Positions 2,718 through 19,544 of a stretch of DNA of 20,951 nucleotides are shown here, one piece after another. Position 1 is the stretch's first letter. Each line of letters starts with the position of its first letter. Under the pieces are notes generated by a model. The model ran no database searches and was not told the origin of the DNA. It saw only the letters and a program-made list of their open reading frames with translations. The stretch is from a virus. Both the position numbers and the translations under genes were made by a program. The stretch covers positions 1 through 20,951 of IMG/VR virus record IMGVR_UViG_3300031565_000464. One strand, written 5' to 3'.

Positions 2718-3041
2718 ATGCTCACCGATGCGCGCTACGTTCATTCCCCAGGAGGCTGGGGGCAGGAAAACAACGTCTGGGACGTTGCTGAGATCGAGAA
2801 TCATCTCTCGATTCAGTTCCAGAGTGGGCCTGCTCCCGCCTACGGGGTCAACGGTGTTCAACTCGTAGATGTTCTCAAGGTCTGCGCCGATCAGGCGCGG
2901 GCTTTGATGTCCGTGGACTCGTCGCGTAGCCGCGCGTTTGTCATCACGAAGCTCGACGAGGCGATCCTCTGGGAAGGTAAGCGCATCGTCGAGGCTGGTT
3001 CGCGCACCAAGGCAGTGGATGCCGCTAGGAGAGACGCATGA
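2718..3041 (+). CDS. Acb2/Tad1 hairpin-domain protein, putative cyclic-nucleotide sponge
   Basis: A 107-residue soluble protein. Residues 32-48 read IQFQSGPAPAYGVNGVQ and are followed by LVDVLKVCADQAR and, at 69-90, SRSRAFVITKLDEAILWEGKRI. The pattern of a GP..xVGVNG lead, a first helix, then SR.x.A...TKL.EA..W.xK.I in the second helix is what I know from the Acb2/Tad1 hairpin family of phage proteins. Characterised members (T4 and Pseudomonas phage Acb2; Tad1) bind cyclic nucleotide or ADP-ribose signals and so inhibit CBASS or Thoeris defence; many relatives are untested. Residues 1-31 (with HSPGGWGQENN) are an extension I do not recognise. The start has a strong AGGAGGA Shine-Dalgarno. The stop overlaps the next gene's start as ATGA, so it is translationally coupled to the gp26-like tail gene and probably made late with the tail. 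Family call is confident; ligand and function are inferred. Confidence 0.8.
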   Translation: MLTDARYVHSPGGWGQENNVWDVAEIENHLSIQFQSGPAPAYGVNGVQLVDVLKVCADQARALMSVDSSRSRAFVITKLDEAILWEGKRIVEAGSRTKAVDAARRDA

Positions 3042-4162
3042 CCAAGCAGGTACCTGCATATCAACCCGTAGACCCGGCCAATCTCCCAGAAGGACACCCA
3101 CTACGCAACCTGGCAGCGCAGCTAGGGATCGCGTCGGAGGTCCAGGGGGCGCCACCAGCGGGCGGTGACGCGGTTAGTACCAGTCGACTAGCCCCCAACT
3201 TCCCCACCTACCAACACGCCCCCCAGGGGGCTCCTGTGGCCGCTCGTTGGGAGCCCACGACCGTTGGGTCGTCCCAGGGGGCTCCTGTGGACCCTCTGAG
3301 CCGCCCCTTCAAGCTCCCGTCCGGTGGGCTGTTGTATCCTGGGCATGACGGGGCGGTGGTGTTGTCGCCGATGCGCGGCGAACAGGAGGAGATGATCGCA
3401 GGCGCTGGCGTTGGTGTGAACGCCACACCAGCCATCCGTCACGTAGTTGAGCAGTGTCTTGACACGCGCGGCATTGTGCACGACCAACTCATTCTGGAGG
3501 ACTGGGCTGCGTGTCTGTTGCACATCCTTTCACTGTCGCAGGGCTCCGATAACTTGCCGATGTACCCGCAGTGCCCATCGTGCACGCAGCACTTCGACGG
3601 GTCACGCGTCCTGAGCGCAGTGCCGTGTCGTTCACTGCATCGCGCTCTGCCCGGTGAGCCGGTGACGTGGCCCCCAGCGACGACTGCCGACGAAGACGAA
3701 GACTTGCTCATCCTGCGTGAGATGGGGCTCGGCGAAGACGGCAGCACTGACTCGCATCAAGTGTTCGCGGCGGCGTCGTTGGATGAGCCTATCACCGTCA
3801 AGCTGCAGAACGGGCAGCAGATTGGTTGGCGATACCTGCGCATCGCCGACTTGATTCAAGCATCGGAATTCGCGGAGCGCTCACAGAGCGGCAACACGAA
3901 CATGGGATCGCGGCTGCACTCGTTTGTGCAGGCGCGCTACATCGCAGCCATCGACGGGCGCAGCGTCGGTGTGATCGACGCCATGCGGTGGTGCAAGCAG
4001 GCACCCCTTCCCCTCCTCCGCGAACTTCGCGAGGTGATTGAAAGGAGGTCGTTCGGCTACGAGTTGCGTCCGATGTTTCAGTGCTCCCACTGCAAGCATC
4101 GCTTCCGCAAACAACTCTCCCTGGACGGTTCCATGTTTCGCAATCGTTCTTCTGGCGTCTGA
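3038..4162 (+). CDS. T4 gp26-like baseplate hub/tail assembly protein with Cys pairs
   Basis: Likely acts in assembling the baseplate hub or tail, as in the T4 gp26-type family found next to tape measure genes in myophages. The first ~85 residues are Pro/Gln/Ala-rich and probably disordered, with repeated QGAP motifs. The family core begins at about residue 90 with LPSGGLLYPGHDGAVVLSPM (an LPS.G.LYP.....V...P pattern), then an acidic/helical stretch ending in LEDWAACLLHILSLSQG. A CPSC pair follows (C179, C182), and a second pair, CSHC (C349, C352), lies near the C-terminus before KHRFRKQLSLDGSMF. The two pairs could jointly bind zinc. The ATG overlaps the upstream stop (ATGA). Lying between tail tube and tape measure, it occupies the place where tail assembly chaperones usually sit. 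Family match is moderate to good; the exact T4 equivalent is uncertain. Confidence 0.68.
   Translation: MTKQVPAYQPVDPANLPEGHPLRNLAAQLGIASEVQGAPPAGGDAVSTSRLAPNFPTYQHAPQGAPVAARWEPTTVGSSQGAPVDPLSRPFKLPSGGLLYPGHDGAVVLSPMRGEQEEMIAGAGVGVNATPAIRHVVEQCLDTRGIVHDQLILEDWAACLLHILSLSQGSDNLPMYPQCPSCTQHFDGSRVLSAVPCRSLHRALPGEPVTWPPATTADEDEDLLILREMGLGEDGSTDSHQVFAAASLDEPITVKLQNGQQIGWRYLRIADLIQASEFAERSQSGNTNMGSRLHSFVQARYIAAIDGRSVGVIDAMRWCKQAPLPLLRELREVIERRSFGYELRPMFQCSHCKHRFRKQLSLDGSMFRNRSSGV
3222..3290 (+). repeat. In-frame 18-base direct repeat (two copies) in the gp26-like gene
   Basis: An 18-base unit, CCCAGGGGGCTCCTGTGG, occurs at 3222-3239 and again at 3273-3290, offset by 51 bases (17 codons). Both copies encode QGAPV in the disordered N-terminal part of the protein; a diverged third QGAP is encoded near 3145. 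Short inverted repeats (GGGCTCC/GGAGCCC and ACGACC/GGTCGT) lie within or between the copies. A recent internal duplication of linker sequence is the simplest reading. Confidence 0.8.
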
Positions 4163-4199: not shown

Positions 4200-4373
4200 A
4201 TGCACCGCGCCGGAATTGCTTACAGCGATTGGCGCCTCATGACACGCTGGCAGCGCCTGGAGTTAGTTGTGAGAAAGGAGAAGCGCGATAACAAGGTTTT
4301 GAAGAAGATGAACGAGAGCAATAATCTGGGCACTATGCTCTCGATGGTGTTCACCAGGGTGATGGGTCTGTAG
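4200..4373 (+). CDS. 57-residue protein between gp26-like gene and tape measure
   Basis: A short basic protein, helical in appearance, with AYSDWRLMTRWQRLELVVRKEK followed by KVLKKMNESNN. Small proteins with a Trp-rich 'W..M....R..L' helix are common just before tape measure genes, where they are thought to act as assembly chaperones or partners of the upstream gene product. I chose the ATG at 4200 because AAGAGGAG lies about 8 bases upstream. A longer version from TTG 4038 would overlap the end of the gp26-like gene in another frame and begin with an unconvincing sequence. Its TAG stop shares a base with the GTG start of the tape measure gene, so the two are coupled. Function is inferred from position only. 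Confidence 0.65.
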   Translation: MHRAGIAYSDWRLMTRWQRLELVVRKEKRDNKVLKKMNESNNLGTMLSMVFTRVMGL

Positions 4374-5995
4374 TGGCTGACGGTTTCGAGACAATCGGTT
4401 GGGTCTTGTCCATTGAGGACGAGGCTACCGGACCCGTCATCAAGGTCCAGAAACTGATTGACGAGGCAGTCAAGAAGACAGCAAAAGCAGCAGATGTAGT
4501 GCTTCAGACCTTCACCACGAAGGCTGAAGAAGTGCCAGTGGAGTTGGTGAAGTTCTACAGTGGGATGTTCGGTAAGGTCGCTGCCAAGTGGCATGACTTC
4601 GGTGACGGGTTCGTCAAGCATTGGGACGACACGAGTAAGAAGGTCAAGAATGTCTCCGGGATGTTGGCGGACATAGGCGCCGAGACGATCCCCAAGTTAC
4701 TGAACATGGTCACCGCTTTGGGCGACGAGATGAAGCGCGCCTTCGACGGTAAGAATTACGCCAAGGCATTCACCGTTCTCGTCAAGCACACGCGCGCCGC
4801 AATTCCAGTCGTCAACGACTTTCTACAGAAGTTCATCAGCATCGAGAAGATCACCAACGCCTTCAAGTTAGCTGGCGGCGTGGCTGGCATATTCTTGGGA
4901 CCATTCGCCGCGCTCTTCCGTTTGTTTGAGCCGCTAATAAAGATGTTCACTGAAGCGTTCATGCCTGCCATGACGTCGTTCACGGCTATCATCCAGAGCG
5001 CGTTCGGCCCACTGACTCAGACGCTAGACATCATCGCGACCAACATCGCAATGAAACTACTCCCGCACATATCTAAGCTGACGGTGATCGCAGAGCTTCT
5101 AGCTGTTCAGTTCGGTGCGTGGGTTACCGAATTGATCGACAGCGGTTTCTTAGAGGACATGATTGACGCGGTAGTTGATCTAGCAGTCGAATCACTTCCC
5201 ATGATGATGGATGCTCTCATGGAGATTGGGAAGGTTTTCAAGGAGGTCGGGCCTGAAATGCTCAAGGCGTTCTTGGAGATCGCAAGAGCACTACTGCCGT
5301 TGATACCGGATCTGACCGAGATCGCAGTCACGATCCTGCGCGACGTGATGCTCCCCACGCTCAAGGCCATTGTGCCGATCCTGCGCGACGATGTCATCCC
5401 ATTCATCAAAGAGTGGCTCCCACCTTTGGTGACTTTGCTGAAGGACGCCGCAGATCAGTTCAAGCAGATACTCGGAATGAGCAAAGCCGAGTGGGGCGGT
5501 GCCTTCAGCGACATCTTTTCGCCGTTCACGAATTTCAGCAAATGGTTGGACACACCCGCAGGGTCGGTGGTGAAAACGCTACTGAACCCGTTCGGCGCCG
5601 CAGCCGACACCATGAAGAAAGCGTTTAACCTGTTCTCCACACCTGACACTCCGGCGCCTAGACTCCCGATGATCGGTGCAACCGGCGTGGCTACACCTTC
5701 TCTCCCGCCGATGGCGGACGGAGCAGCCATGGTGAACAGACCGGTCATCGCTGGGGAAGCTGGGCCGGAGATGATTCTCCCTTTGAATCGGTCTACCGTT
5801 GAGCGTGTTTTGTTGCCGCTGCTGCCGAAGATCGAGATGCCTGGGCAAGAGGCGATTCAGCGTGTACTGGAGCGCATAGACGATAAGCTCGGCGGAAAGC
5901 TGCGCGTTGATGGTGGTGCGTCTGCGGTGTCTGTTTCCGGTGGCGATGGTGGTTTGTCTATGGCCGTTGGGATGGACGGGGTAGGTGCTTGGTGA
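4373..5995 (+). CDS. Tail tape measure protein
   Basis: Sets tail length by spanning the lumen of the growing tube, and is released on infection. It is 540 residues, mostly helical, and rich in hydrophobic heptad-like segments such as PMMMDALMEIGKVF and repeated LLPLIPDL/ILRDVMLPTLKAIVPILRD blocks. A strongly hydrophobic stretch lies at about residues 166-190 (GVAGIFLGPFAALFRLF), as is usual for tape measures. Near the C-terminus (about 456-470) is VIAGEAGPEMILPLN, the well-known 'GEAGPE..IPL' signature of these proteins. The end (from about 500) is Gly-rich. At roughly 1.5 angstrom per residue it would fit a short tail of about 80 nm. The GTG start overlaps the previous stop by one base (TAGTG), and the TGA overlaps the next start (GTGA). 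Identity is confident. Confidence 0.88.
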   Translation: MADGFETIGWVLSIEDEATGPVIKVQKLIDEAVKKTAKAADVVLQTFTTKAEEVPVELVKFYSGMFGKVAAKWHDFGDGFVKHWDDTSKKVKNVSGMLADIGAETIPKLLNMVTALGDEMKRAFDGKNYAKAFTVLVKHTRAAIPVVNDFLQKFISIEKITNAFKLAGGVAGIFLGPFAALFRLFEPLIKMFTEAFMPAMTSFTAIIQSAFGPLTQTLDIIATNIAMKLLPHISKLTVIAELLAVQFGAWVTELIDSGFLEDMIDAVVDLAVESLPMMMDALMEIGKVFKEVGPEMLKAFLEIARALLPLIPDLTEIAVTILRDVMLPTLKAIVPILRDDVIPFIKEWLPPLVTLLKDAADQFKQILGMSKAEWGGAFSDIFSPFTNFSKWLDTPAGSVVKTLLNPFGAAADTMKKAFNLFSTPDTPAPRLPMIGATGVATPSLPPMADGAAMVNRPVIAGEAGPEMILPLNRSTVERVLLPLLPKIEMPGQEAIQRVLERIDDKLGGKLRVDGGASAVSVSGGDGGLSMAVGMDGVGAW

Positions 5996-17507: not shown

Positions 17508-17876
17508 GTGTTACCGAAGGAATTTAAGTTTTCGATTCCCCGCGATCATCCAAAGGCAGCGAAGCTGATTTCCATCTTCGATAAGCTAGCCACATCGCGA
17601 GAGCGAGTTGGCGGGTTGGTGATTGACTCAGGAATCACAGACGACTCAGCAGTTCAGTACGTGCTTGGGGAACTGCGCGACCTCTTGGTGGAGTCTGGTG
17701 TGGACTTGAATGATCTTGTCGAAAAGTCCCTACACAGAAAGCCCGCACCTACTGATGTCTCCAAGTTCTTGCGCGACCCAAGCTCATTGACGGCTATGCT
17801 TGCTGGCCTGGCTGGCAGCACGGGACTATCGAGTGTAGGCTCGTTGTTCTCGTCACCCACAAAGGAAACTCCATGA
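17508..17876 (+). CDS. Hypothetical small protein
   Basis: I do not recognise this 122-residue protein. It has mixed charge, with a likely helical middle (FDKLATSRERVGGLVI, then AVQYVLGELRDLLVESGVDLNDLVEKSL). The end is small-residue-rich and mildly hydrophobic (LTAMLAGLAGSTGLSSVGSLFSS), not clearly a membrane helix. The GTG start has AGGGGG about six bases upstream, just after the fibre stop. The TGA overlaps the ATG of the lipoprotein gene (ATGA), so the two are coupled. Position between fibres and the replication block leaves several roles open, including lysis, fibre chaperone or virion accessory. Confidence 0.6.
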   Translation: MLPKEFKFSIPRDHPKAAKLISIFDKLATSRERVGGLVIDSGITDDSAVQYVLGELRDLLVESGVDLNDLVEKSLHRKPAPTDVSKFLRDPSSLTAMLAGLAGSTGLSSVGSLFSSPTKETP

Positions 17877-18148
17877 AACGCTTAATCTTCGTTGGATCGC
17901 TCGCCCTGTTCATGGCCGGTTGCTGTTGCAACCCTGCCGCCATGAAGGCCATCGACCGTGGCATCTCAACGAACAAAGGCCACATGGTCGACAGCGGTCT
18001 GCCGCAGAAAGCGCGTGAAATCGCACAAGACAACTACGATGTCTTCAACCAGGTGAAGTTCAGCCTCGACGGAACAGCACTCCCCGAAGACACCGCAGCA
18101 CGTTCCGCCGCGCGCACGCCGAAGCCCGCTGAGGGTGGTGGTGAATGA
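17873..18148 (+). CDS. Predicted small lipoprotein
   Basis: A 91-residue product. The N-terminus MKRLIFVGSLALFMAGC is a classic lipoprotein signal: two basic residues, a hydrophobic core and a lipobox with the modified Cys at 17 (followed by two more Cys). The mature part is about 75 residues, polar, with AIDRGISTNKGHMVDSG, KAREIAQDNYDVFNQVKF and a Pro/Ala/Gly-rich tail. It should be lipidated and held in a membrane, likely the outer membrane in a diderm host. Phage lipoproteins of this size include outer-membrane spanins (Rz1-like) and superinfection-exclusion proteins. No partner inner-membrane spanin was seen nearby, so I do not assign it to lysis. It starts inside the upstream stop and ends inside the next gene's ATGA, and belongs to a coupled three-gene set. 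Confidence 0.7.
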   Translation: MKRLIFVGSLALFMAGCCCNPAAMKAIDRGISTNKGHMVDSGLPQKAREIAQDNYDVFNQVKFSLDGTALPEDTAARSAARTPKPAEGGGE

Positions 18149-18668: not shown

Positions 18669-19544
18669 ATGGCGGTCGACATCAACGTCTACTCACACAG
18701 CAACCCAAACGGAGGTCCAAATCCACTGCACAGTTCGTGCGTGGGTGCTACTCCTTTGGATGCGGGACTCGCCCTCGACGCAGTGATGGTTGGGGGTGGC
18801 CTCGGACCGCCACTCGGACCACCGCGTCAGCACACGCTCACGTATCCGCAGGTACCTGCTGATCCCATGCTCGCGCTTCACGCGGTGCAGAATCGATACC
18901 ACAACTGTGGGCGCTGTCATCTGTCTGAGACGCGCAACAAGATCACCTACGTGCGCGGCAACGTCTACTCACCCATAGTGCTCTTGGGTGATGGGCCGTG
19001 TCAGTCGGCTAACACCGTAGGACAACCATTCAGCGGCACTGACGGGAACCTGCAGAACGAAATTCTCGTGCAAGTCGGGATCCACCCAGTTAGCGATGTG
19101 TGTTGGATGCAACTACTTGGGTGTCGTGCGGCGGGCCACTTCCAAACCGACCGCGCACCTACTGACACTGAGTTGGTCGCGTGCTCGGAGCGGACCACGA
19201 TGTTGCTCCGCGCAATTCGGCCCCGCGTTGTTGTGTGTCTGGGCCGCGACGCCACGAGATACTTCTTCGATGAGCCGCCAGAGCTTTGGGGGTGGAAGAT
19301 GTTCACCCCGCTGGACTCTCCAGATGATTGGGTGATGGTCGGTTACGCGCACCACCCGTCGTATCTGGTGCGAGTCATCGGCGCTGCGCCCATGTATCGG
19401 GAGTACGCGGCGAGCAAGAGCTTCTACGGTATTTTGCTTGATCGCATGCCGTCACTGACAAAAGTCACTGGGTGGCAATTCATGCCGCACTACGTCGAGA
19501 AAACTCTCAACGGACGCATCACCGTGGGGGGTGTGTCGTCGTGA
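18669..19544 (+). CDS. Family-4-like uracil-DNA glycosylase with altered active-site motifs
   Basis: Belongs by sequence to the 4Fe-4S uracil-DNA glycosylase superfamily, which cuts the base from uracil in DNA. Four cysteines fit the cluster: C80 and C83 (CGRC), C152 (GCR) and C172. Motif 1 is LLGDGPCQSANTVGQPFSG (105-123); motif 2 is HHPS (228-231) in VGYAHHPSYLVRV. APTDTELVACSERTTML and IRPRVVVCLGRDA complete the family core. Differences stand out: the usual GE(A/G)PG is GDGPC, the second acidic position is Ala, and the usual Asn before the third Cys (TNVVKC) is Gln (MQLLGC). Residues 1-75 are a Gly/Pro/His-rich extension without a known domain. It starts a coupled run with a winged-helix gene, a DnaC-like gene and a helicase gene. 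Activity could be on uracil, on another modified base, or lost. Superfamily assignment is confident; substrate is not. Confidence 0.75.
   Translation: MAVDINVYSHSNPNGGPNPLHSSCVGATPLDAGLALDAVMVGGGLGPPLGPPRQHTLTYPQVPADPMLALHAVQNRYHNCGRCHLSETRNKITYVRGNVYSPIVLLGDGPCQSANTVGQPFSGTDGNLQNEILVQVGIHPVSDVCWMQLLGCRAAGHFQTDRAPTDTELVACSERTTMLLRAIRPRVVVCLGRDATRYFFDEPPELWGWKMFTPLDSPDDWVMVGYAHHPSYLVRVIGAAPMYREYAASKSFYGILLDRMPSLTKVTGWQFMPHYVEKTLNGRITVGGVSS

Follow-up and report, generated by a model that had tools for sequence, protein, structure and literature searches.

Sponge proteins show which alarm molecules bacteria use. Thoeris or CBASS is inhibited by the phage protein Tad1, a hexamer of three dimers with gcADPR or cyclic di- or trinucleotides as its ligands. 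Its C-terminal tail lines a pocket common to gcADPR and dinucleotides, and trinucleotides bind separately, at trimer interfaces (PMC12043709). In phage phiKZ, Tad1 (gp184) is a virion protein that is injected into the host (PMC10449902, PMC13282480) and is reported to block both CBASS and Thoeris (PMC13282480); the injected protein is named in the latter review, and orf184 is given by PMC12043709. Here we describe a Tad1 relative encoded among the tail genes of an uncultured phage, in a stretch of 20,951 nucleotides (the window), and compare it with these systems.

A Tad1-branch protein between tail genes

The first-pass annotation had described a 107-residue protein encoded between a tail tube gene and a gp26-like gene, coupled to the latter through ATGA, an arrangement that the open reading frames and profile matches bear out. 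The features of the locus are as follows.

60–2081, + strand: tail sheath gene, C-terminal part (phrog_23, E 3.6e-43)
2095–2652, + strand: tail tube gene, the upstream neighbour, conserved in that place across members (phrog_45, E 3.6e-11)
2691–2705, + strand: 5-bp RNA hairpin GCCTC-AACAG-GAGGC, directly 5′ of the Shine-Dalgarno sequence (covariation, 10 members)
2706–2711, + strand: Shine-Dalgarno sequence AGGAGG of the Tad1-like gene (from the sequence)
2718–3041, + strand: gene for a divergent Tad1-family protein (P0001), 107 aa, ATG start (open reading frame, phrog_2428, PDB 8kbb)
3038–4162, + strand: gp26-like baseplate/tail assembly gene, the downstream neighbour (PF12322 T4_baseplate, phrog_150 baseplate hub)

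The stop codon of the Tad1-like gene and the start codon of the gp26-like gene share four bases (3038–3041). Matches of the gp26-like gene are weak (PF12322 at E 0.0016, below the cut-off, and phrog_150 at E 0.0012), and tape measure and baseplate genes lie downstream of it. In an overlapping 40.9-kb contig, in which the sheath reading frame runs to 1202 aa, the upstream genes include those for a major capsid protein of the Gp23 type and a prohead protease of family S77, which identifies the source as an uncultured myophage of the T4 superfamily; with the closest cultured sheath proteins, identity is about 30% and extends over half the protein.

Membership of the Acb2/Tad1 family, as first proposed, is supported and can be narrowed to the Tad1 branch. 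A single-sequence phmmer search of the PDB retrieved CmTad1 (8kbb, E 7.6e-8) and, less strongly, CbTad1 (E 0.003), PHROG 2428 matched residues 26–93 (E 6e-8) and tblastn paired the protein with SBSphiJ7 Tad1 (30% identity, E 2e-4). A profile of 22 relatives from other phages, built with this lineage left out, found the window protein independently at 57 bits (E 2.2e-15), and a profile of the lineage itself reached CmTad1 in the PDB at E 1.5e-11 and an Acb2 homologue at just E 1.4. The segments GPAPAYGVNG and SRSRAFVITKLDEAILW lie, as had been noted, at residues 37–46 and 69–85. Copies of the protein, 30–100% identical, occur in many contigs; together with dN below dS and the phmmer match to solved Tad1 structures, this argues that the reading frame is not a chance one.

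The proposed search with an HMM of the hairpin family gave a divided answer: the Tad1 profiles found the protein, but the Pfam model PF24729 (Acb2_Tad1_hairpin) did not match it. The sole match in that Pfam scan, RLIP76, was set aside as a chance one, and an NCBIfam scan of the protein gave no match. Close relatives score 18.3–21.4 bits against PF24729, under its 27-bit gathering threshold, as does the protein of P59, a clear Tad1 homologue (17.2 bits), so we regard the model as insensitive to the Tad1 branch.

An AlphaFold2 monomer model, built on a 31-row alignment (mean pLDDT 80) after a lineage-only alignment had given a poor model (pLDDT 65), predicts strands at residues 5–8, 23–26 and 30–33 and helices at 49–66 and 70–106, with the helical hairpin blocks at pLDDT 91–97. 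In Tad1, N-terminal β-strands lead into a pair of long antiparallel helices, as predicted here; the arrangement of Acb2, a short N-terminal helix and two helices without strands, does not fit, and the strand-free Acb2 also lacks the FQxGP...GVNG segment, which with the E-value of its homologue places the protein in the Tad1 branch rather than with Acb2. A fold search of the PDB with this monomer placed Tad1 chains in the first 14 positions, at probability 1.00 and E 1e-3 to 7e-3; the match ranked after them had E 1.5. Monomer TM-scores to Tad1 were low, at 0.39–0.51, and the fold call thus rests on the agreement of sequence and structure. The helical hairpin expected in the first-pass annotation is therefore present in prediction, and the N-terminal extension that it had called unrecognized proves not wholly so, with three predicted short strands where Tad1 has its N-terminal β-sheet. 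By analogy with Tad1, the protein may act as an oligomer.

Elsewhere in the window, the tail genes are followed by a gene of the uracil-DNA glycosylase superfamily (18669–19544; PF03167, E 2e-13) and then by genes for an HTH protein and a DnaC/IstB-like ATPase. A 91-aa reading frame at 17873–18148 that starts MKRLIFVGSLALFMAGCC has a lipoprotein-like signal and no Pfam match; it is possibly a spanin or an exclusion lipoprotein. In the overlapping contig (G001, 26831–29974, equivalent to L087:6831–9974, − strand), a 1047-aa protein has the S77 prohead protease as its N-terminal domain and a weak scaffold-like match at its C terminus, and adjoins the gp23-like capsid gene, an apparent protease–scaffold fusion.

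Replacement of the ligand-pocket residues

Three features hardly vary, if at all, among the 22 diverse relatives: the C-R-E-N Asn, the D-R Arg and the V-E-G at the C terminus. The REN-motif Asn is found in 22/22 relatives and is Arg in 9/9 lineage members; the VEG tail is present in 21–22 of the 22 relatives versus none of the nine. The DR motif is likewise absent from all lineage members, along with the VEG(T) tail, and GPIKE of the relatives becomes GPxxT/V/A. The contig L090, checked by eye, also has Asn replaced by Arg and no VEG(T) tail. The positions of CbTad1 F82 and N92, which we take to be key residues for gcADPR, align with Leu and Arg in the lineage. Core residues are kept throughout (Q35, G37, P38, G43, N45, G46, R70, T77, K78, W85 and R89), and phiKZ gp184, SBSphiJ7 and P59 retain REN/EEN and EGT motifs.

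Judged from these alignments, the ordinary gcADPR/dinucleotide pocket is not intact in the lineage. With the REN Asn changed to Arg and the VEG(T) tail lost, ordinary Tad1 ligand binding cannot be assumed. The protein descends with Tad1 and would work in its manner; we do not file it as a functional Tad1, since the lineage has neither the GVEGT tail nor the REN motif that belong to the gcADPR/CDN pocket. Loss of sponge function would look alike: the most invariant ligand-associated residues are gone.

A single gain, retained with the tail

Ten distinct members, the window and L090 (a contig of a metagenome-assembled genome) among them, make up all resolvable contigs in which tube identity is 67% or more. 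In each, the Tad1-like gene stands directly before the gp26-like gene and overlaps it by 1–8 bases, and the tube gene precedes it in every member whose contig covers the upstream side. At 13 sister loci with a tube 36–62% identical, the order sheath–tube–gp26–tape measure is the same and the gene is absent, gp26 following the tube after a gap of about 8–62 bases. A search of 11 sister records, some of which are fragments, found no copy at another place, and a genome scan for the lineage returned L090 only. This distribution indicates a single gain by the lineage ancestor, into an intact tail operon, with retention since. A tree, midpoint-rooted so that its direction is inferred, unites the lineage as one clade (100/100) at the end of a very long stem (2.81 changes per column). 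Distances for the gene track those for the tube (Mantel r 0.58) and gp26 (Mantel r 0.69), and dN/dS is about 0.2–0.4 for pairs with dS below 0.75, which indicates inheritance with the tail under purifying selection.

Could the fold have been exapted, its ligand binding lost, for a tail role such as that of a tube/gp26 assembly chaperone or regulator? The lineage-wide loss of pocket motifs from a kept fold, the long stem, the constant position, the overlap with gp26 and the co-inheritance with tube and gp26 would all be expected. A tail component, however, should be indispensable to homologous tail modules or at least shared among them, and in the sister phages the same set of tail genes stands in the same order without this one, so that it is not needed to build such a tail and a tail-structural role is unlikely; the tape-measure proteins around the gene, moreover, diverge freely (26–35% identity). 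We consider exaptation doubtful.

The gap upstream of the gene holds other reading frames in some members. In L021, a 90-aa frame (4200–4472) sits between the tube and the Tad1-like gene, and in L015 (6019–6938; also L016/L055:1666–2585) the same gap holds three tandem small genes, which suggests an insertion spot. The three products have no Pfam or PHROG match and begin MRTFNQYLSE|S, MRTFNQYLAE|T and MKTFEQHYLAE|A, close to MKTYQEFIAE|A, the sequence that targets the T4 internal proteins ipII and ipIII to the capsid. Each of these N-terminal sequences closes with an (L/I)xE site of the kind that the T4 prohead protease cleaves; from these N termini they are probably packaged, injected proteins. 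The tube–gp26 gap of one sister phage (L084, 3537–3600) holds a strong terminator-like hairpin (GGACGGACGGAGGG...CCCTCCGTCCGTCC TTTG).

A conserved hairpin in the leader

The hairpin ahead of the Shine-Dalgarno sequence is present in all ten members (among them L004, L005, L006, L014, L015, L019, L020, L021 and L090), with the consensus GGCYC-AANAN-GRGCC-AGGAG. All 50 of 50 cells are paired and three of the five pairs have changed on both sides in compensatory fashion, whereas sliding the partners by one base reduces pairing to 60% or less. An Rfam search around the leader found nothing credible. The element probably tunes translation or mRNA stability of the Tad1-like gene.

Two further candidates were rejected. 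A hairpin before the sheath gene in L005 and L019 was considered as the same element and set aside because it falls within the final part of the coding stretch before it, and because L014 and L015 do not have it. A second hairpin, occluding the Shine-Dalgarno sequence and start codon, was not distinctive enough in accessibility: the pairs flanking the ATG are mostly kept, and Shine-Dalgarno accessibility is 0.21 versus 0.29–0.41 for gp26 and tube.

Timing of expression and virion-linked precedents

The view that a tail-operon setting implies late expression is supported by the locus, late transcription being read from position. That late synthesis would be odd for a defence inhibitor, as was first remarked, is a puzzle that published answers ease. 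One is the injected phiKZ Tad1. The other is that a staphylococcal Thoeris is triggered by the major capsid protein (PMC12578639), which is a late product. The puzzle softens further in that placement in a structural region is recurrent for Tad1-like genes of unrelated environmental phages, which adjoin the terminase large subunit (L024, L032, L033 and L046) or a head–tail adaptor (L035); those of Herelleviridae adjoin recombinase and sigma-factor genes.

The phiKZ precedent raises the alternative of a sponge that is synthesized late, travels in the particle and enters the next host cell together with the DNA, and so is present from the start of that infection. A family profile finds phiKZ gp184, which is part of a solved phage structure (8y6v), at E 1e-11; gp184 is annotated as a structural protein and its injection is documented (PMC10449902, PMC13282480). 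The Tad1-like gene lies inside the tail operon, coupled directly to gp26, and in L015 and L016 it adjoins the three genes with T4-type capsid-targeting N termini, which with the T4-type S77 prohead protease makes packaged proteins plausible at this locus. The window protein itself, however, has no targeting sequence and is missing the 150-residue N-terminal part of gp184, which is an ordinary Tad1 (it keeps EEN and TEGT) from outside this lineage. Virion delivery is, on this balance, rather unlikely.

A proposed role

The reading that we prefer, at a probability of roughly 0.5, is that of a late-made, Tad1-derived counter-defence sponge of changed specificity, produced together with the tail. 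A sponge gene of the Tad1 kind would have entered the tail operon of a T4-superfamily lineage once, between tube and gp26. It would be transcribed late, along with the tail genes, and translated from its own start with the hairpin in front, and the product would act inside the infected cell by binding, rather than cleaving, an immune nucleotide signal whose level climbs late, such as one set off by newly made virion proteins. Since the usual pocket for gcADPR and dinucleotides has been rebuilt, gcADPR bound in the manner of Tad1 is probably not the ligand; likelier would be some other signal, or a cyclic trinucleotide bound at the separate site of the trimer interface. There is a modest chance that the rebuilt pocket captures an immune nucleotide signal that Tad1 and Acb2 are not known to bind and that the sponge, made at tail time or borne in the virion, meets defences that late virion proteins trigger.

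Least probable is that Panoptes-type sponge-sensing defences, which are triggered by Acb2 dinucleotide binding and whose escapers lose Acb2 (PMC12657218), selected against the dinucleotide pocket and left a trinucleotide-only sponge: the separate Tad1 sites for di- and trinucleotides (PMC12043709) and the loss of pocket motifs from a core that keeps Q35, G37, G43, N45, G46, R70 and R89 would fit, but there is no link from the lineage to a Panoptes-bearing host, and we judge this improbable.

A fold kept under long selection while the residues for known ligands are replaced suggests that the signal is an unknown one, or else that binding of the known ones has been selected against, as Panoptes-type defences would bring about. 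Because its place in the tail operon is constant, the gene allows a clean comparison with sister phages that have the same tail and no sponge, and the lineage extends what phiKZ established, namely that a sponge can be made late or be linked to the virion.

Comparison with known systems

PHROG 2428 resembles the window protein in sequence and is a family without assigned function or tail-gene context. Acb2 (T4 vs.4 and PaMx33) shares the two-helix hairpin with its TKL.EA.MW motif (PF24729) but differs in the missing N-terminal region already described, and T4 vs.4 lies among small genes of the vs/regB region, far from structural genes, whereas the window gene is in a tail operon. In phiKZ, gp184 is likewise a myophage Tad1 domain encoded as or with a structural protein; it differs in its length of 230 aa, with the additional N-terminal part and the retained pocket motifs, and in lying outside a tube–gp26 context. 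The Tad1 proteins proper (CmTad1, 8kbb–8kbd; CbTad1, 7uav, 7uaw and 8smd; SBSphiJ7) are small phage proteins with N-terminal strands and a C-terminal helical hairpin, both predicted here, with which the window protein has in common the core FQxGP....G.NGV and ITKLDEA..W..KR. From these the lineage departs in the Arg for the REN Asn, the Leu at the CbTad1 F82 position and the absent GVEGT tail, and in location: phages of the SBSphiJ7 type carry Tad1 beside recombinase and sigma-factor genes, and the phage described here carries it in the tail operon.
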